40,642 nt of DNA from Acidobacteriota bacterium (GTDB lineage Bacteria > Acidobacteriota > Blastocatellia > RBC074). Below, piece by piece: positions 7,734 to 30,822 of this stretch (positions are counted from its first letter, which is position 1; every line of letters starts with the position of its first letter). The stretch is taken from contig JACPYM010000079.1 in NCBI GenBank assembly GCA_016196035.1, forward strand, positions 1 through 40,642, read 5' to 3'. The notes under the pieces are model-generated. The model did no database searches. It saw only the letters and a list, made by a program, of their open reading frames with translations, and was not told the origin of the DNA. Position numbers and translations under genes: made by a program.

Positions 7734-9073
7734 GGGGCGACAGGCGCGCCGCAAGCGGCGAGTAGCCGGTAAAACTCCGGCAATGAGACCGACGCCGCCT
7801 CGGCATTGGCGATTTGCGTCGCGCCCTCGGCCCCCAGCGCCGCCACCGCGAAGGCCATCGCAATGCGGTGATCGCCGTAAGAGTCTACCGCCGCGCCGCG
7901 CAAAGTTTGCCGGCCTTTGATTTGAAAGCCGTCTTCGAACTCTTCAATTTGGGCATTCATCCGGCGCAGGTTGTCCACGATGGCGCGGATGCGGTCGCTC
8001 TCTTTGACGCGCAATTCGCGGGCGTCGCGCACGGTCAGCGTGCCCTCGAGTTGCGTGGCGGCGACGGCCAGGATCGGCAATTCGTCAATCAGGTTGGCGA
8101 TGACCGCGCCCGACAGTGTGAGATCGCCTTGCAGTTTGGACGAACGCGCGCTGAGATCGGCGACGGGTTCGCCGTGCACCAGGCGTGGATTGGTGATGTC
8201 AAGCTGGCCGCCCATTTGCCGCAACACGTCGAGCAAGGCCGTGCGCGAAGGGTTGATGCCGATGTGGCGCAGATGCAATTCGGCATCCGGCACGATCAAT
8301 GCGGCGACCAAAAAGAAGGCGGCAGAAGACAAATCGCCTGCGACTGTGTATTCGCCCAATGCTTTGAGCGCTTGGCCGCCCACGATAGAAAGGCGTTCGC
8401 CCGTGCTGGTTTGTTCACGCTGCAATGCAACGCCGCATTCGCGCAGCATCACTTCGGTATGGTTGCGCGTGGGCGTGGTTTCAATGACGGATGTGACACC
8501 GTCGGCAAACAACCCCGCCAGCAGCGTGCACGATTTGACTTGGGCGCTGGCGATGGGCGGCGTGTATTCAATGCCTGAGAGATTGCCGCCGTGAATGTGC
8601 AGCGGGGCGTAGCTGCCGTCGCGGGCTGCGATGCGCGCGCCGAGCAGGGTCAGCGGTTCGATGATGCGTTTCATCGGGCGGTGCTGGATGCTTTCGTCGC
8701 CGGTGATTTCGGTGGTGAAGGGTTGTCCGGCCAGAATGCCTGAGAGCAGGCGAATGGTCGTGCCCGAATTGCCTGCGTCGAGGACGCGCGTGGGCGCTTG
8801 CAAGCCGTGCACGCCGACACCCGTGATTTCGATGGCTGCGGGCGAACGTTTGGCGGGCACGCCCAGAGCTTCCAAGCAATCGAGTGTGCTTTGGCAATCG
8901 CGCGCTGAGGAATAATTCAGCAGTCGCGACGGGCCGTCGCCGAGCGCGGCGAACATGGCGCTGCGGTGCGAAATGGATTTGTCTCCGGGAATTTGAAAAG
9001 CGCCGCGCAGCCGTTCAACAGCAGCGAGGGTGACCGATGAAACCGTGGTTGCAGTGGATGATGATGAAGCCAT
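7730..9073 (-). CDS. aroA: 3-phosphoshikimate 1-carboxyvinyltransferase (EPSP synthase)
   Basis: Condenses shikimate 3-phosphate with phosphoenolpyruvate to EPSP, the penultimate step to chorismate. Family landmarks are [10 protein letters not shown] near the N-terminus, [38 protein letters not shown] and [16 protein letters not shown] 9073 gives about 447 residues, the normal size; the frame is open upstream to 9229, but that part does not resemble the family. No strong Shine-Dalgarno is visible before 9073. The gene heads a three-gene overlapping operon, aroA-aroK-epimerase. The GNSGTT motif keeps the glycine-rich PEP-binding pattern. Confidence 0.96.
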
Positions 9074-9428
9074 GAGAAAAGAAGTTTTGCCGGTGAACTG
9101 AAACTTTCGCGCAAAGAGTGCCGTACAGACGGACGGCACTCCACGAATGATCCAAAAAAATGCGTTGTTGCGGTGAAGCACGCGGCCTGCCAAGCAGCCG
9201 GCCAGCACGCAGGTTCCGAAGCGAGCCAAGGCGCGTAAAGCCCGACGGTTGACAGGTTTTTTCGGCCTGTGTTACACAGGCTCGCGTTTTACCGAACTTG
9301 TTTACGTGATCGTCCTTGCGGTGTCCGAACGCGCGCATCTTATCACACGGTTTTCGTACCCCGGATGAAGAGCGCAGCTATTTTGGCCTCTCACTTGGAC
9401 GGGGCCTGAAAGAAGGAACCTCCGGCTT
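9074..9428. other. Divergent intergenic region aroA / rsbW-like gene
   Basis: 355 bases between divergently transcribed genes that must hold both promoters; no convincing gene is visible. It contains two small hairpins: AGTGCCGT with ACGGCACT at 9118-9141, and GCCTGTG-TTA-CACAGGC at 9265-9281, a 7-bp stem with a three-base loop. A Shine-Dalgarno-like AAGGA lies just before the 9429 start. I could not assign confident -35/-10 boxes. Confidence 0.5.
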
Positions 9429-9911
9429 ATGATGCTAGCCGAAAATGTCGTCGAATTGACTATCGCCAGCCAACTGGAATTCATTGATCTGGTGACGACC
9501 CTCACGGACAACGTCACGCAGATGGTCGGGTTCGATGAGGAAGCCGCCTATTGGGTCAACATGGCGGTGCGCGAATCGGTCGCCAATGCGGTCGAGCACG
9601 GCAATAAATACGATCCGAACAAAACCGTGGACATCCGGTTCACCATCGGCGTGGACGCCTTGCGGGTGACGGTGCGCGATCACGGCGAAGGCTTCGATCC
9701 CGCGACGCTGCCCGATCCGCTTGATCCGCACAACATCCTGAATCCGGCTGGGCGAGGCATTCTTTACATGCGCACGTTTATGGACAGCGTCGAATACGAG
9801 CGTCATCCCGAAGGCGGCATGATCGCGACGATGTCCAAACGCCGCGCCCCGAAAGCCGTCGAAGCCTCTCAAGAAGGAGATCGCAAACACGATGCAGTTG
9901 GAAATTACTGA
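9429..9911 (+). CDS. rsbW: Anti-sigma regulatory serine kinase, RsbW/SpoIIAB-like
   Basis: A 160-residue GHKL-type ATPase (HATPase_c_2). The N box is [12 protein letters not shown] (about 48-59), the G1 box is [10 protein letters not shown] (about 81-90) and the G2 box is GRGILYMR. Such kinases bind and inhibit a sigma factor and phosphorylate their STAS antagonist; in Gram-negative bacteria the same pair often steers other outputs. AAGGA precedes the start; ATG 9429 and 9432 are both possible. It overlaps the STAS gene by 20 bases, so the two products are coupled. No phosphatase or sensor gene is adjacent, and the nearest sigma gene is at 22740, so the target is unknown. Confidence 0.9.
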
Positions 9912-14161: not shown

Positions 14162-15745
14162 ATGGCAACCGTGCAATCATCACCCGCCGGGACGCAACCG
14201 GCAGCCGAACCCGTCGAAAGCCCAGTCGGAAAAAAGGCTGGCGCTAAAACCAAACCGTTGACCATCTGGTCGGCGGTAGATTTTGTGCTCGATCTGCTCA
14301 GTTCCGTGCCGTTCGGCCTGATTTTGCTCATCCTGCTGATCTCGGCTTGCATGACCGGGATGCTCATACAACAACAGGAACTGCCGGAATTTTCCAAGTA
14401 TTATGCCAGCTTGACCCCGGCGGAACGGATCGTTTACGGGCGGCTGAATTTCTTCGACATTTATCATGCGTGGTACTTCAACGTGCTGCTGCTGCTGCTC
14501 AGCCTGAATATCATTCTCGCTTCGATAGACCATTTCCCAGCGGCCTGGAGCTTTATCGCCAAAAAGAAACTGACCGCTTCGCCCACCTTCGCCAAAGCGC
14601 AACGCACCAAAGGCGAAGTCGAATTGCCTGGCGTCAATCGGGCTTCGCTGGTCGAACGCGCCCGGCAGGCGGCGCGGACTTTGGGCTTTAAGACCAAAGT
14701 CACCGAAGAAGAAACGCGCACCACCATCTTTGCCGAACGCGGTGTCTGGAACCGCCTGGGCGCCTATCTGGTGCACATTTCGTTGTTGACGATTTTTGTG
14801 GGCGGCTTTCGCACCAGCCAGGGTTACACCGGCATGATGCGCGTGGTGCCTGAAAAGCAATCCGACCGGATGATGCAAAGCGTGTTTAGCATTGATAACG
14901 CCGCGATGTTGCACAATTCCGGCATGCGCGAACTGGAGTTGCCATTCACCATCGAGGGCGTGGACATTCAGCAAAAGCTGATTGATAAGAGCAAAGGCAT
15001 TGATATGCCCAACACGCTGGATTGGATCACCCGCGTGCGCATCCACGACAAAGAAACGGGCAGGAAGGACGAAGCGCTGATTCACATGAATCATCCGTTT
15101 GATTATCGCGGCTACCGCATGTTCCAAACCAACTGGATCGCGCAAGGCAATGCCCGCCAGGTCAAAATCCGCGTCACGCCGACCGCTGGCGGGACTGCGC
15201 AAGACATTACGCTCGAACGCAGCGGGCAGGCCAAACTCCAGGATGGCACCATCGTGCGTTACCGCGAATTCAATCCCGCCTTCACCGTTAATCGCGAAGG
15301 TCACGTTGAGATGTCCTCAGCCGATTATGACAATCCGGCGGCGCACCTGGATGTGATCTATCCCGATGGCGACAACCGCGATGTCTGGGCCTTGAATGAG
15401 GCAGGGCGATTGATGTTTGAACAAGCGCCGTTTTTGAAGGAAAAGTTCGGCGACACGGGCAAGTACAGCTTTACGCTCACGGATTTTGAGAAAGTCGGCA
15501 CGGCCCACGACATTTCAATTCAGTTCGATCCGGGGATCAAAATCGTTTACACGGGCTTCCTGATGCTGTGCCTGTCGCTGATGGCGGTGTTCTTTTTTTC
15601 GCACCAACGGCTTTGGCTGGTGGTTGAAGAGGGGAAAATTACGCTGGGCGGCGATGCCAACCGCAATCGGCTGGGGTTTGAAGACCGTATGAAGCGTGTG
15701 ATGGCGCGCATTCGTGGTGAACAGGAATTGCAGACGGCCCCATAG
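14162..15745 (+). CDS. resB: Cytochrome c biogenesis protein ResB/Ccs1
   Basis: A 527-residue membrane protein of system II cytochrome c maturation, which with CcsA/ResC carries heme outward and ligates it to apocytochrome CXXCH motifs. TM1 is FGLILLILLISACMTGMLIQ (about 45-65), and TM2 is near NVLLLLLSLNIILASIDHFP, an end that is typical of ResB. TM3 (LVHISLLTIFVGG) precedes a large periplasmic domain with PFDYRGYRMFQTNW, and a last TM at about 465-485 is IVYTGFLMLCLSLMAVFFFS before HQRLW. The length and HQRxW ending match the family. The ccsA partner follows at 16007 after a broken small gene. Confidence 0.92.
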   Translation: MATVQSSPAGTQPAAEPVESPVGKKAGAKTKPLTIWSAVDFVLDLLSSVPFGLILLILLISACMTGMLIQQQELPEFSKYYASLTPAERIVYGRLNFFDIYHAWYFNVLLLLLSLNIILASIDHFPAAWSFIAKKKLTASPTFAKAQRTKGEVELPGVNRASLVERARQAARTLGFKTKVTEEETRTTIFAERGVWNRLGAYLVHISLLTIFVGGFRTSQGYTGMMRVVPEKQSDRMMQSVFSIDNAAMLHNSGMRELELPFTIEGVDIQQKLIDKSKGIDMPNTLDWITRVRIHDKETGRKDEALIHMNHPFDYRGYRMFQTNWIAQGNARQVKIRVTPTAGGTAQDITLERSGQAKLQDGTIVRYREFNPAFTVNREGHVEMSSADYDNPAAHLDVIYPDGDNRDVWALNEAGRLMFEQAPFLKEKFGDTGKYSFTLTDFEKVGTAHDISIQFDPGIKIVYTGFLMLCLSLMAVFFFSHQRLWLVVEEGKITLGGDANRNRLGFEDRMKRVMARIRGEQELQTAP

Positions 15746-15779
15746 TCAGGCTGAGTTGAGGGAATTTACCCGGAGCGAG

Positions 15780-15948
15780 ATGTTCAAAATGGGAATGCGT
15801 ACTTTTACTGCAATCGTTCACAAAGAAACGGATTTGTATGTTGCGGAATGTCCTGAGGTGGGCACAGTCAGCCAGGGTTATACGATTGAAGAAGCAGTGG
15901 CGAATCTGTAAAGAAGCCACCGAATTATATCTACAAGAATGCTCTTGA
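15780..15948 (+). pseudogene. HicB-like antitoxin with a one-base frameshift, orphan
   Basis: From ATG 15780 (or 15789 or 15795) the frame reads FTAIVHKETDLYVAECPEV, then GTVSQGYTIEEAVANL, before TAA at 15909. This is the start of HicB-family antitoxins (partial RNase H fold). If one T at 15909 is dropped, the frame continues KEATELYLQECS and stops at 15948, which is exactly the usual HicB continuation. So a single inserted T, or a sequencing or assembly error, has broken it. A GGAG-like ribosome site precedes it. No HicA toxin is adjacent. It lies between resB and ccsA, interrupting a normally contiguous pair. Confidence 0.8.
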
Positions 15949-16006
15949 TAGACCAAGTCTACCAAGGTGTGGTCTTTTTGCTGGTCTTTCTTGATGGAGG
16001 CTTACG

Positions 16007-17611
16007 ATGAGTCAGGCAATGAAATCAATTAACGTCCCGCTGCCCGCCGCGCCCGAATTCGTCGCGCCGCGCTTTGGGATCAAAAATTATCTGCCCGCGC
16101 TGCTGCCTTTGCTGGCGGCGTTCGCGTTAGTGGCCGTTCGTAAAGCCGGCGGGCCGGGTTCGACGCCGACCGATGGCACGCTGATCGTGTGGGCGCTGTT
16201 GGCCTATATCTTTGCGGCGGCTTCGCTGCTGGTCAATTTCTGGGCACCGGTGCCGTTCCTGCAAAAGCTGGGTCTGTGGGCCGGGTCGTTCGCGTTCTTT
16301 GCCAATCTCGCAAGCTGGCTGGTGCGTTGGGTCGCGGCCGGTGAGCGCGAGAGTTGGGTGCGCATGACCGACCAGATCACGGGCCAATATCATTTCTGGT
16401 GGTTCTTCGGTTACATCCCGTTTACCAATCTGTATGACCTGTCGGTGGCGTTTGCCTTCGGCGCGGCCTTTGGCACCTTGCTCTGGAGCCAGCGTGAGAA
16501 TGCGCGATTCGTCGGCGCGCTGTCATTTCCACTCATTACGCTCATCTTGTTGTTGGCCGTTTTTATCGGCAACACCTTCGTTGATCTGCCGCCGGTGCTG
16601 GATAGTTACTGGCGTCCGATTCACGTCGGCGTCGCCTCGCTCAGTTACGGCATCGCGCTGGTGAGCTTTGCCATCGCCGTGATGTACCTGATCAAAGACG
16701 GCGTGAAGATGGAGGCGATGGGCATCGGGGTCGGCATCTTTGTGCTGGCGGGCTTTTTGCTCTTCAGCAATGGCTTCAACATTCTGTCGTTGAATTACAC
16801 GCTCAATCCGATGCTGCCGACGATGCGCAGCGAGATCTCCGCCGTGCGCGTGCCGGTGCCGGGCATGGGGCTGATTCTGCTGGCGGCGCTGGTGTCGTTG
16901 TTGATCGGCACGCTGGGATTTGCACTGTATGTCTATCGTAACGACGAAAAAGGCAAACGCTTCGGTCATTTGGCCTGGCGCGTCTCGTTGGCGTTGCAAG
17001 CGTTGGGCATCGGCTGGTTTTTCTACCAAGTGAAAACGGCGGGCAGCGTGGCAGGCGCCATCGGCGCGAATCAATACCGCGCGCTGGGCGCATGGTTGAG
17101 TGGCGACCAAGCCGCGCAAATGTCCGTTGAACAATTGGTGCAAACGGGTTCGCAATGGCTGCAACAGGCGGGCGGCAACCTGACGCTCAATGCGCGTTCC
17201 AATCCGGTCGAAGTCGCCGCATTGCTCAGTGCCCTGGTGTTGACGGGCTTCATTGCCTTGTTCAGCTTCCGCACCGAAAAGATTCGCGCCGCCTTGCCGC
17301 CGCTCGAACGCATTGACCAGATGGTTTACAAAACGGTCGGCGTCGCCTTTGCCGGGTTGGCGATTCTGTTGGTGACGGGCGCGGTCTGGGCCAACGAATC
17401 GTGGGGCCGGTATTGGGGCTGGGACGCCAAAGAAACGGGCGCGTTGGTGGCGTGGCTGGCCTATGGCGCTTATCTGCATTCGCGCATGGCGCACGGCTGG
17501 ACGGGACGGCGCAGCGCCTACTTCGCGCTGCTCGGCTTCCTGCTGGTGATCTTCACCTATCTGGGCGTGAGTTACCTGTTGCCGGGATTGCACTCTTACG
17601 CCAAGTTGTAG
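16007..17611 (+). CDS. ccsA: Cytochrome c biogenesis protein CcsA/ResC (heme handling protein)
   Basis: A 534-residue polytopic membrane protein. The family signature is the tryptophan-rich WWD-type segment ANESWGRYWGWDAKETGALV near residue 465-485, followed by a long TM and the ending FTYLGVSYLLPGLHSYA. Histidines flanking the WWD segment coordinate heme (for example HVGVASLSYG near 206 and HSRMAHGW near 500). With ResB it forms the system II holocytochrome c synthase. A GGAGG ribosome site lies six bases before ATG 16007. An extended region at about 330-420 is not seen in shorter CcsA proteins; its role is unknown. The hairpin at 17630-17669 follows. Confidence 0.93.
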   Translation: MSQAMKSINVPLPAAPEFVAPRFGIKNYLPALLPLLAAFALVAVRKAGGPGSTPTDGTLIVWALLAYIFAAASLLVNFWAPVPFLQKLGLWAGSFAFFANLASWLVRWVAAGERESWVRMTDQITGQYHFWWFFGYIPFTNLYDLSVAFAFGAAFGTLLWSQRENARFVGALSFPLITLILLLAVFIGNTFVDLPPVLDSYWRPIHVGVASLSYGIALVSFAIAVMYLIKDGVKMEAMGIGVGIFVLAGFLLFSNGFNILSLNYTLNPMLPTMRSEISAVRVPVPGMGLILLAALVSLLIGTLGFALYVYRNDEKGKRFGHLAWRVSLALQALGIGWFFYQVKTAGSVAGAIGANQYRALGAWLSGDQAAQMSVEQLVQTGSQWLQQAGGNLTLNARSNPVEVAALLSALVLTGFIALFSFRTEKIRAALPPLERIDQMVYKTVGVAFAGLAILLVTGAVWANESWGRYWGWDAKETGALVAWLAYGAYLHSRMAHGWTGRRSAYFALLGFLLVIFTYLGVSYLLPGLHSYAKL

Positions 17612-26734: not shown

Positions 26735-26777
26735 TGCTTTCACTCCTCGGTAGTGGGTCAATGGGGAGAGAGTCACG

Positions 26778-26857
26778 CCGCAGATCAACGCCGACCGACG
26801 CAGATCAATTCAATTGGCTAACAGGACTGATCCGCGTTTTCCAGCGTTCATCCGCGG
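26778..26857. repeat. Diverged palindrome between EF-hand and DUF4870 genes
   Basis: Arms of 30 bases (26778-26807 and 26828-26857; CCGCAGATCAACGCCG...) match at 22 of 30 positions around a 20-base centre. Looks like an older member of the dispersed-palindrome type seen elsewhere in the window. Confidence 0.65.
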
Positions 26858-27078
26858 CAAGACCTCTCCTCTTTGAGCCACCACCCACTCCTCAAAAAAT
26901 GTTGCTCATAGCGCGCCAACGCCGGACGACGTTGTTGCGTATTGCTAGGAGGCCAGCTCCTGCGCCTTGGTCGGAAATTTTTCCGCCGGTTTACAAATTC
27001 ACGGCCTTTCAAGATACTGAGGCGCATTGGCGCACGGCAATTTTCTTCAAACCACAACCATCCCCAAGGAGGCAGATC

Positions 27079-27450
27079 GTGTACACCCCAACGCAACAGG
27101 AACGCACCCTAGCGATGCTTTGCCATATCGGCGGACTGCTCGGCATTTTTGTGCCGCCCGGCAATCTGGTCGTGCCGCTGGTGATTTGGATGTTGAAGAA
27201 AGATCAATCCGCCTTTATCAACGAACACGGCAAAGAGGCGATCAACTTCCAGATTAACCTGAGCGTCTGGGCCGTCATCTGTTTCGTGGTCAGCTTCATT
27301 CTGATTTTTATCATCATCGGCGCCTTTCTGATGCCGCTGACGTTGGGCTTGCTCGGACTGGCGGGGTTGGTGCTGGGCATCGTGGCGGGCGTCAAAGCTT
27401 ACGAAGGCAATTACTATCGCTACCCGTACATCATCCGGTTGGTGAAATAA
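27079..27450 (+). CDS. DUF4870-like small membrane protein
   Basis: 123 residues starting at GTG 27079, chosen because AAGGAGG lies six bases before it; the frame is open far upstream, but that part lacks similarity. It begins VYTPTQQERTLAMLCHIGGL and has a characteristic VPPGNLVVPLVIWMLKKDQS and NEHGKEAINFQINLSVW, both typical of DUF4870 (Tic20-like) proteins. Three TM segments: LLGIFVPPGNLVVPLVIW, WAVICFVVSFILIFIIIGAF, and LGLLGLAGLVLGIVAGVKAY. Function of the family is not established. It is followed 22 bases later by the dipeptidase gene. Confidence 0.85.
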   Translation: MYTPTQQERTLAMLCHIGGLLGIFVPPGNLVVPLVIWMLKKDQSAFINEHGKEAINFQINLSVWAVICFVVSFILIFIIIGAFLMPLTLGLLGLAGLVLGIVAGVKAYEGNYYRYPYIIRLVK

Positions 27451-28878: not shown

Positions 28879-30822
28879 CTAACCCCACGCAAATTCCTGC
28901 TGCAAACAATCCTCCTGCAACGCGCGCACCAACGCCGCCACATTCACCTCATTCGGTTGCAAATGCACCTGCAAGCTGTGAGCTTGCGCCGCCTCGCGCG
29001 CGCCGTCATTCGTGCACAGCACGCGGGCCGCGCCCAGAAAGACGGGCAGGGGGCTGGGTTCGAGCACCGTGGCCAGATTCTCGACGCTCGATTCGCCGTT
29101 GAACAGCACGTAATGGAAGTGTGCGGCGCGCAACTCCGCCGCGATTTCAGCGCTGCCGGTTTCGGGCAATGAGGTGCGGTAGGCTTCGCCCACTTCGACA
29201 TAGACGCCGAATTTGTCCAGGGCGGAACGCAAGTCTTTGTGCGATGTTTGTGAGGCGAGCAGTAACATTGACGTGCCGCGCAACCGTTCGCGCACGCCAT
29301 AGCGTTTGCGCACCGCTTCGGCCAAACATTCCGCCGTGAATCGTTCGAGCACGAGATCGGGTTGGACGCCTTCCGCGCGCAACGCTTCTGCCGTGCGCGC
29401 CCCGACGGCGGAAATGCGGCGGGCTTCGATTTCGCTCAGATGATGGCCAAGCGCGAGAAAGCGTTTGAAGAAATAGGTCACGCTGGCGGCGCTCACAAAC
29501 GTCACCCAGTCGTACCAGCTCAAATGCAGGAGCGCTTTATCCAGGCTTTCCCAACCGGTCGGCTCGCTGGTGCGCACGGTCGGGCAGACGACCACTTCGG
29601 CACCCAATTCTTCCAGTCCGTTGACCAGTTCCGCGTTGGCGCGTGTGGCGCGCGCAATCAAAATGCGGCGCTCCTTCAAGGGCGCTTGCTCACGCGCTTT
29701 GCGCGCTTTGGTCGCGACCAGGTCGAACTCGTGGGCGGCTTCGCTCACAAACGCAGAAACCGCTGCCGTTTGTTCTTCCGCCTGCGCTACCTCTGCGCCA
29801 CGCGTTTCCATCAGCGGCGCGGAGGCCGCCAGGGCGACAGCGGATTCCTGCAAGACGGGGAACAGTTCCTCGACCGCCGCATAGAGGTTCATTGGCGAAG
29901 CTTGCAGCAATTCGCGCGCGCCGTTGTTTAACAGATCATGCGCCAGCGCGCTGCCGATTAATTCACCTTGGCGCAGCGGGCCACGGCCTTCGCTGCGCAC
30001 CAACCGGCTGCCGTCGGCATCGGCCACCGTGGCGGTGACGATCAATTGCGGCCCGTCAGCACTTTCTTCCACCCGCGCCAAGGCTGCCGCCGGAGCGCGG
30101 CGTTCATTGAATGGTTGAGGCAGCAAATTGCGCAAGACGGCGCGTTCCGCCGCCGTGGCATAACGCGTCGGCCAATGATTGAGGGCTTCCAGCAACAGGT
30201 TAGTGCGTTGGTCTTCGAGGCGTGTTTGCAAAGCGAAGGCGCCCTGCCCGGCGGCGGGCAAGACTTCATTGGGTTCCAGCAAGGCCGCGATGCGCCCGCG
30301 TTCGCCCAGATGCAATAACGCCGCCGCCGCCACGACCAGCGCGTCCACTTCACCCAAGTCCAATTGCTTCAGCCGGGTTTCGAGTGGCGCATAGAGATCA
30401 ACAATTTGCCAGCCGTACAGCAAGGCTTGCAATTGCGCGCGCCGCACAAAGGTGTTGACGCCGATGCGCGCGCCGTCGGGCAGATCGAAAAGGCGTTTGA
30501 CCTGCGCGTGCCAATCGTCGCGCACGACCAGCGCCTCGCGTGGCTCCGCGCGTTCGGTGATGGCGGCCAGGTGAAATTCGAGCGGCAAGTCCAACGGCAG
30601 TTCGCGCAGGCTGTGCAAGACGCCATCCACGCGGCGCGTTTGCAGCGCTTCTTCCGCGGCGCTTTGAAAGGCGTCTTGGGGCGTAGCCTCGGCCTCCGCC
30701 AGTTCGATAATTTCCAGGCCGACCAGCAAGCCGGGATGCAATTTTTCCAACTGGGTCTTGACCCAATTGGCTTGGCTCAGCGCCAGCTTGGCGGCGCGCG
30801 AGCCGATGAGCAGATGTGCCAT
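28879..30822 (-). CDS. hemD: HemC-HemD fusion with cysteine-less, degenerate HemC domain
   Basis: 647 residues. The first about 310 resemble porphobilinogen deaminase (IGSRAAKLAL, LETRLKQLDLGEVDALVV, VLPAAGQGAF). The last about 260 resemble uroporphyrinogen-III synthase (LIARATRANAELVNGLEELG, SWYDWVTFVSAASV, SAVGARTAEALR). Two consecutive heme-pathway enzymes are fused, which is known elsewhere. The HemC half, however, has no cysteine at all, so the dipyrromethane cofactor cannot be anchored; the usual VHSLKD site reads VLHSLRE (R73-E74), the RGNV Arg is missing and the AGLxRL Arg is His. The HemD half looks normal. Start ATG 30822 has a weak ribosome site. Confidence 0.82.
   Translation of the reverse strand: MAHLLIGSRAAKLALSQANWVKTQLEKLHPGLLVGLEIIELAEAEATPQDAFQSAAEEALQTRRVDGVLHSLRELPLDLPLEFHLAAITERAEPREALVVRDDWHAQVKRLFDLPDGARIGVNTFVRRAQLQALLYGWQIVDLYAPLETRLKQLDLGEVDALVVAAAALLHLGERGRIAALLEPNEVLPAAGQGAFALQTRLEDQRTNLLLEALNHWPTRYATAAERAVLRNLLPQPFNERRAPAAALARVEESADGPQLIVTATVADADGSRLVRSEGRGPLRQGELIGSALAHDLLNNGARELLQASPMNLYAAVEELFPVLQESAVALAASAPLMETRGAEVAQAEEQTAAVSAFVSEAAHEFDLVATKARKAREQAPLKERRILIARATRANAELVNGLEELGAEVVVCPTVRTSEPTGWESLDKALLHLSWYDWVTFVSAASVTYFFKRFLALGHHLSEIEARRISAVGARTAEALRAEGVQPDLVLERFTAECLAEAVRKRYGVRERLRGTSMLLLASQTSHKDLRSALDKFGVYVEVGEAYRTSLPETGSAEIAAELRAAHFHYVLFNGESSVENLATVLEPSPLPVFLGAARVLCTNDGAREAAQAHSLQVHLQPNEVNVAALVRALQEDCLQQEFAWG

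Follow-up and report, generated by a model that had tools for sequence, protein, structure and literature searches.

HMB synthase (HemC) is described as needing one invariant cysteine, which carries the dipyrromethane that the enzyme makes for itself and draws the growing chain through the catalytic site. The window (the whole stretch of DNA analysed here, 40,642 nucleotides of an Acidobacteriota draft genome) encodes a HemCD fusion whose HemC half lacks this cysteine, which raises the question of whether HMB synthase chemistry proceeds without it at this locus, or whether the half is a remnant beside another HemC. The initial annotation, made from the letters of the window, had left open both of these readings, together with the uptake of heme from outside.

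The HemCD fusion of the window

The HemCD fusion is a single uninterrupted gene (Table 1), and its first cysteine, residue 413, lies inside the HemD half. Translation and alignment agree with the initial annotation that the first 330 residues are free of cysteine. E. coli HMB synthase (1pda and 1ah5) aligns with the HemC half over chain residues 6–304 (E-value of 5.8e-42 for 1ah5), and, in E. coli numbering, the residues changed in the window are S13A, K59Q, K83R, D84E, T127V, S128N, S129T, R131V, R149Y, N151P, and R176H, with cysteine absent at 242 and a shortened lid, in which residues 42–46 form an alignment gap. These changes bear out three further points of that annotation, namely, the conversion of the K-D pair of the VHSLKD site to R-E, the replacement by Ala of the Ser that follows the N-terminal Arg (R11, itself present), and the loss of substrate-binding arginines (R131, R149, and R176). 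Still present in the half are R11, Q19, S81, R132, R155, and Q198. Thus far it remains recognizable as a member of the family, with a PF01379 score of 133.7 bits (cut-off of 22.1); its C-terminal domain scores 14.9 bits with PF03900, below the cut-off of 26, and its score with the NCBIfam equivalog TIGR00212, 163.9 bits, is marginally below the cut-off of 164. The features that define an HMB synthase are incomplete in this half: the cysteine for the dipyrromethane cofactor is missing, catalytic Asp84 is Glu, and only R11, R132, and R155 remain among the substrate arginines considered. Judging from these residues, the window HemCD is probably inactive as an HMB synthase and would not be the HMB synthase of the cell. 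The predicted structure of the window protein alone (AlphaFold) had a pLDDT of 37.4 and was not used.

A frameshift or sequencing error that masks the cysteine, which the initial annotation had named as a possible refutation, does not account for the loss. GGxC occurs at the site in none of the three frames of the minus strand, and the single GGRC, in frame 2 of that strand, lies about 25 codons beyond the site in an unlike context. The sister genome (G001), which is the one other member of the genus searched, also lacks cysteine at the site, with four cysteines elsewhere within the first 330 residues of its fusion. The canonical HemCD proteins of the same family (in G003, G006, G007, G008, and G009) are the same two-part fusion with 41–44% identity to the window protein, and each is the sole HemC match of its genome; they retain GGGC, the lid, K-D, FTSPST, and CIGPVTA, whereas the window fusion is altered at all of these places. 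The cysteine loss is shared with G001 and not with the canonical fusions of the family.

The HemD half, which had seemed normal in the initial annotation, is in fact altered. It is a clear member of its family (PF02602, 129 bits, cut-off of 27.5), and the signatures of its first domain are present; the FTS and GPxTA signatures of the second domain are gone.

Table 1. Positions of the features discussed, in the window and in other records
Feature	Record	Position	Strand	Basis
Resident HemCD fusion, 647 codons/647 aa	window	28879..30822	minus	intact open frame
HemC half, residues 1-330, zero Cys	window	29833..30822	minus	translation + alignment
Shortened active-site lid (relatives: TTGD...GGKGxFTKE)	window	30667..30705	minus	alignment
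HSLRELP replacing HSLKDLP (K83R, D84E)	window	30595..30615	minus	alignment
GVNTFVRR replacing GTSSLRR (T127V, S128N, S129T, R131V)	window	30439..30462	minus	alignment
YAPLETR replacing RGNVxTR (R149Y, N151P)	window	30373..30393	minus	alignment
LLPQPFNERRAP replacing cofactor loop LGGGCAVP	window	30091..30126	minus	alignment
HemD half, from residue 381	window	28882..29682	minus	Pfam + alignment
FNGESS replacing FTSPST, HemD second domain	window	29086..29103	minus	alignment
CTNDGAR replacing CIGPVTA, HemD second domain	window	28996..29016	minus	alignment
DUF4870 gene	window	26761-27450		
Cytochrome c assembly genes ResB, CcsA	window	14162-17611		
Second HemC	G000, contig C60	2385-3083	plus	
Divergent glutamyl-tRNA-reductase-like gene	L034 (G000, contig C60)	1327-2376		
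Separate HEM4/HemD gene	L035 (G000, contig C102)	8436-9251		
Stand-alone HemD	L042 (genus g8)	8793-9569		
Histidine kinase/response regulator in heme operon	L059	9969-11580		
Histidine kinase/response regulator in heme operon	L068	8665-10319		
Cys-less HemC'D'	L125	5998-7488		
Cys-less HemC'D'	L126	2003-3535		
Cys-less HemC'D'	L128	5989-7539		
Cys-less HemC'D'	L129	6013-7584		
Cys-less HemC'D'	L134	6013-7539		

A second HemC and a probable replacement heme operon

A search of the window's own genome (G000) recovers one other HemC (163.4 bits), on contig C60, as expected from the suggestion that the cysteine-free half is a remnant with another HemC elsewhere. The C60 protein is a compact HemCD of 504 residues, denoted HemC'D', in which GGGC and HSWKD are present together with substrate arginines; its HemC' part retains all 18 compared residues (R11, S13, Q19, D46, K59, S81, K83, D84, T127, S128, S129, R131, R132, R149, R155, R176, Q198, and C242), and N151, considered separately, is Ser. 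The protein passes the hemC equivalog TIGR00212 (178.6 bits against 164) and has the HMBS catalytic residues, including the cofactor Cys, that characterize the Leptospira-type HemC/D. The same pair is found in G001, in which a more decayed HemCD without Cys242 (95.1 bits) accompanies an intact HemC' (152.7 bits). In the family, HemC is matched in 8 of 11 genomes, and the six outside the genus have a single match each (271.5–287.4 bits). Across the class (162 genomes, 109 with a match), a second low-scoring full-length HemC occurs only in G000 and G001, and four other genomes show two partial HemC pieces. The same scan gave no HemC match in 53 of the 162 genomes, or in 36 when only the 101 good-quality genomes are counted, and tetrapyrrole synthesis may often have been lost in the class.

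The intact HemC' bears directly on the reading that the window HemC half itself works as an HMB synthase independently of a cofactor Cys. The fold family of the half is kept, as are R11, R132, and R155, but none of the lid, K83, D84, S13, S129, R131, R149, R176, and the cysteine remains unaltered, and the same genome encodes an intact enzyme. In E. coli HMB synthase, D84A and D84N are inactive and D84E is reduced (PMC3945110), and human Cys261 is intolerant to change (PMC10577081). Cysteine-free catalysis by the window protein was set aside on the residue losses as extremely unlikely, and the different chemistry of heme synthesis proposed in the initial annotation is without support in this genome.

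The gene order on C60 is hemA', hemC'D', hemB', hemL', and hemN', and the only HemB, HemL-grade, and HemA matches of the genome lie on this contig, scoring 349.9 bits (486–503 in six family genomes), 482.6 bits (635–655 in five family genomes), and a weak 38.7 bits (175–190 in five family genomes), respectively. Profile searches of G000 did not find hemA, hemB, or hemL of the canonical family type; as its single copies are all of the C60 operon type, the canonical set seems to have been replaced. The sole HemB of G001 is also of the operon type, and HemA and HemL were not found in that genome, where the contig is 4.4 kb and cut. Four tested genomes of the genus g8 have the same hem gene types as C60. 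One g8 genome has a stand-alone HemD (L042), in which the second-domain signatures are altered too (FTHPDE and VGDATT) and which is perhaps redundant beside HemC'D'. The window HemCD has a DUF4870 gene nearby, as do the HemCD genes of G006, G007, and G008, and this shared neighbourhood fits the descent of the window HemCD at its old place.

The hemA'-hemC'D'-hemB'-hemL'-hemN' type of operon is present in Bdellovibrio and Leptospira records. In Bdellovibrio bacteriovorus, hemA', hemC'D', hemL, a histidine kinase gene, a response regulator gene, hemE, and hemN are found, with hemB adjacent on the opposite strand. The Leptospira interrogans operon consists of a hypothetical gene, hemCD, hemB, hemL, histidine kinase and response regulator genes, hemE, and hemN, whereas the G000 locus is limited to its five genes; relative to the general order hemA-hemCD-hemB-hemL-(HK-RR-hemE-)hemN, the bracketed HK, RR, and hemE are absent from C60. 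The hypothetical gene at the hemA place in Leptospira is a weak hemA match (34 bits), like the divergent glutamyl-tRNA-reductase-like gene on C60 (L034), which reaches only 37 bits. The HemC/HemD protein of L. interrogans, annotated as a “bifunctional porphobilinogen deaminase/uroporphyrinogen synthase”, is the kind of enzyme encoded on C60 and retains HSWKD, SSPRR, and GGGCHQKIG; the window protein differs from it in being a fusion of the canonical type. A histidine kinase and a response regulator lie within the heme operon in records of Bdellovibrio and Leptospira and in those of Blastocatellia, for example L059, and are absent from the G000 locus.

The HemC'D' set comprises 80 loci out of 91 confirmed relatives, of which the named ones are mostly Bdellovibrionota, together with SAR86, some alphaproteobacteria, and Acidobacteria. 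In a quick tree of 82 rows, from which L138, L119, and L103 were dropped and in which many deep forks are open, eight Blastocatellia rows cluster as a single clade (SH-aLRT 100) that lies among rows of Bdellovibrionota, and two further Acidobacteria rows (L094 and L106) are placed elsewhere. A record titled Streptomyces griseus (MAG), L082, whose HemC'D' falls with Bdellovibrionota, may carry the wrong name.

The second intact HemC, the replaced neighbours, the decay of the old fusion in two species, and its open frames together point to displacement: the resident HemCD has very probably been made redundant by an imported heme operon of the Bdellovibrionota/Leptospira type. The likely order of events begins with the window gene as the ancestral HemCD fusion of the family. 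An ancestor of the genus would have acquired hemA'-hemC'D'-hemB'-hemL'-hemN', now on C60, and the imported HemC'D', with its own cofactor Cys, would make hydroxymethylbilane and close it. The resident hemA, hemB, and hemL would have been lost, and the resident HemCD would have remained as an open frame, its HemC half without the Cys on which the dipyrromethane cofactor is usually held and presumably no longer acting as an HMB synthase, and its HemD half without second-domain signatures. The cysteine loss in the window is real and is very probably explained by this displacement, not by a new chemistry.

A mix-up of contigs, in which either the C60 operon or the window comes from another organism in the bin, is conceivable for a draft assembly of 139 contigs, but it is very improbable, given that the same HemC pair is present in another genome of the genus, that GC content is similar (0.592 in the window, 0.582 in the first 16 kb of C60, and 0.593 in the C102 stretch), that contamination is 0.18%, and that G000 yielded no canonical hemB, hemL, or hemA.

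The later steps of the pathway were searched for in the same genomes. HemE was not found in G000 and G001 in searches with TIGR01464 (4 of 12 genomes without a match) and PF01208 (4 of 8 without), and ferrochelatase was not found in either, both being among the 3 of 10 genomes without a match. A separate HEM4/HemD gene of G000 (L035, contig C102) lies beside a molybdopterin oxidoreductase gene and a siroheme-type nitrite reductase gene, and G007, a genome with a canonical HemCD as well, has the same type of cluster. With neither HemE nor ferrochelatase found, and a siroheme-type nitrite reductase gene next to HEM4, uroporphyrinogen III may serve siroheme. The window itself carries the cytochrome c assembly genes ResB and CcsA, and the heme of this strain may come from outside, through heme uptake, or else by the siroheme-to-heme (Ahb) route.

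Constraint on the old fusion

On 12 canonical rows, 74 invariant columns were defined, and the old fusion has lost 15 of the 27 at the active site in G000 and 18 of 27 in G001, against 21 of the other 47 in each genome. A concentration of losses at the active site is not significant (Fisher p of 0.47 in G000 and 0.09 in G001); as the two rates do not differ significantly, the data do not show a loss targeted at catalytic positions. In the comparison of G000 with G001, the old fusion has 42% identity, a dN of 0.60, and a saturated dS of 1.50, and third positions changed most. For the same pair of genomes, the values are dN 0.43 and dS 1.65 for HemC'D' and dN 0.20 and dS 1.13 for HemB', and canonical relatives show dN 0.10–0.24 and dS 0.75–1.70 in four pairs that are less diverged. 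About 15 stops would be expected in a random frame of the same make-up, yet the frame of the old fusion is open in two species. The open frame and the bias to third positions indicate some selection at the protein level, and the gene is therefore not a plain pseudogene. This selection is read as weaker than that in canonical relatives, in keeping with a redundant protein under relaxed constraint. What is left in the window may, as a tentative reading, be a protein in slow decay under weak constraint.

Compatible with displacement is the proposal that the old HemCD has been repurposed as a pseudoenzyme that binds a tetrapyrrole, PBG, or a partner such as HemC'D', and that regulates or buffers the pathway. 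The frames that stay open at 42% identity with a third-position bias would suit such a role, as would the well-kept first HemD domain and GQGxxxLQxRxEDQRTNLxLExLNHxPTR stretch in both G000 and G001, but the rates of loss at active-site and other invariant columns, which do not differ significantly, the divergence of the two proteins in different directions at many sites, and a comparison in which no new conserved motif was seen make it unlikely.

Whether the HemD half could still matter depends in part on the tail of HemC'D'. Pfam HEM4 gives no match in the C60 protein, a profile comparison of the HemC'D' tail with HemD gave none either (hhalign probability of 0.1), and no PF02602 match was found in 6 of 10 HemC'D' genomes, including two complete Bdellovibrio chromosomes; the four with a match are Blastocatellia/Acidobacteria. 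In a predicted model of the relative L125, residues 305–496 match 4es6 (Z of 12.2, 3.6 Å over 189 residues) and 3re1 (Z of 10.9), a HemD fold match obtained on L125 and not on the C60 protein itself; HemD was not among the best 50 Foldseek matches of the L125 model and was present in the VIA-align list. Dual activity of the Leptospira fusion has been reported (Guegan 2003, as cited in PMC8698207). Taken with the modelled fold, the imported HemC'D' most likely carries its own compact uroporphyrinogen III synthase.

The idea that the window HemCD was retained because the imported operon had no HemD is weakened by this HemD-like tail, by Bdellovibrio lacking a PF02602 gene, and by the losses in the HemD half of the window. 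It is likewise doubtful, and rather improbable, that the fusion is kept for a residual HemD activity with the HemC half as a merely co-folding domain, a reading that is also compatible with displacement. The first-domain signatures are present in the window, and the region of the first HemD domain is the best conserved between G000 and G001 (51% identity), but FTSPST and GPVTA are gone in both, HemC'D' seems to supply its own UROS fold, and there is a further HEM4 gene on C102. A tyrosine that we take to be a candidate active-site residue of HemD is present in the window (AYRT) and absent from G001. UROS is not known to have any essential residue (PMC7242693), which leaves some room for residual activity. 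Under displacement, the preferred explanation, the window represents one way of losing the cysteine, in which a displaced fusion erodes in both catalytic halves with its frame open, and it would be a useful case in which to follow the passage from enzyme to pseudoenzyme once an operon has been swapped.

Steroidobacteraceae-type HemC'D' proteins

The cofactor Cys (GGxC) of HemC'D' is kept in 74 of the 79 loci that reach the site (L138 ends before it) and is missing in five, L125, L126, L128, L129, and L134, which are labelled Proteobacteria/Pseudomonadota, three of them Steroidobacteraceae, and which form one clade in the quick tree (SH-aLRT 100). Like the window protein, these five lack the cysteine of the cofactor loop; unlike it, each is the single HemC match of its genome (completeness of the genomes not given), keeps Asp84, Lys83, and the substrate arginines, and has cysteine at the place of E. 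coli Ser128, which is Cys122 in L125. The residues present in all five are R11, S13, Q19, D46, S81, K83, D84, R101, R105, S129, R131, R132, R149, R155, R176, and Q198; K59 and N151 are not kept, and T127 is replaced by Ser, which is also the residue in 31 of the 75 other HemC'D' rows. Position 128 is Ser in all 75 of those rows and in each of the five canonical HemCD proteins compared, so that a Ser-to-Cys change there is not a general feature of HemC'D'. Two further cysteines common to the five are less specific: the second (CxxMVLPL) is Cys in 33 of the 75 other rows, and the third, in the HemD tail, in 57 of 75.

The L125 model has a pLDDT of 92.1, and its HemC part matches 4htg (Z of 30.2) and 1pda (Z of 28.8); the structure alignment used 35 of the 80 loci, with L089, L094, and L131 dropped for a GTG first codon. 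Ser128 lies just before a domain-2 helix. Human Ser146, which corresponds to E. coli Ser128 by a constant offset of 18, is listed as a van der Waals contact of ring C1 (PMC7907807), and E. coli Ser128 is one of the residues that, in simulations, touch the chain from DPM through P5M (Table 1 of PMC3945110). Ring C1 is bound to Cys242, and the movement of this cysteine is proposed to draw the chain past Asp84 (PMC8561815).

These features suggest that, in one lineage of HMB synthases, the site at which the dipyrromethane cofactor is attached shifted from Cys242 to Cys128, a proposal that stands evenly balanced. PF01379 scores of the five are 107–146 bits, and their TIGR00212 scores of 111–142 bits, all under the cut-off of 164, count against relocation, since such scores are expected of a changed enzyme or of a non-enzyme. 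If Cys128 holds the cofactor, the mobile Cys242 loop cannot draw the chain as the accepted model has it, and growth would proceed otherwise, for example through motion of the domains only. More boldly, the bilane might be assembled in these enzymes without any covalent attachment. The Steroidobacteraceae case would then be the other way of losing the cysteine, in which the sole copy found keeps its other catalytic residues and gains a new Cys beside the cofactor, and it offers a direct test of whether chain growth needs the mobile cysteine loop. Among the matches listed from the open-licence literature, no Cys-less or pseudoenzyme HMB synthase was recognised, and the relocated anchor is possibly a new variant. 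In a plasmid collection, where Cys-less relatives were sought, four records were found (two of Leptospira and two of Neisseria), and the Leptospira protein examined keeps GGGC.

The gene neighbourhoods of these proteins are of a sulfate-assimilation/siroheme type. The operon in L125, L129, and L134 consists of cysJ, cysI, cysH, hemC'D', hemB, a 5-aminolevulinate synthase gene, and cysG (cys names assigned from Pfam domains); in L128, cysG lies ahead of hemC'D', and the operon of L126 is cut by the contig end. The 5-aminolevulinate synthase matches TIGR01821 with 501 bits in L125 and 524 bits in L128, against a cut-off of 339.
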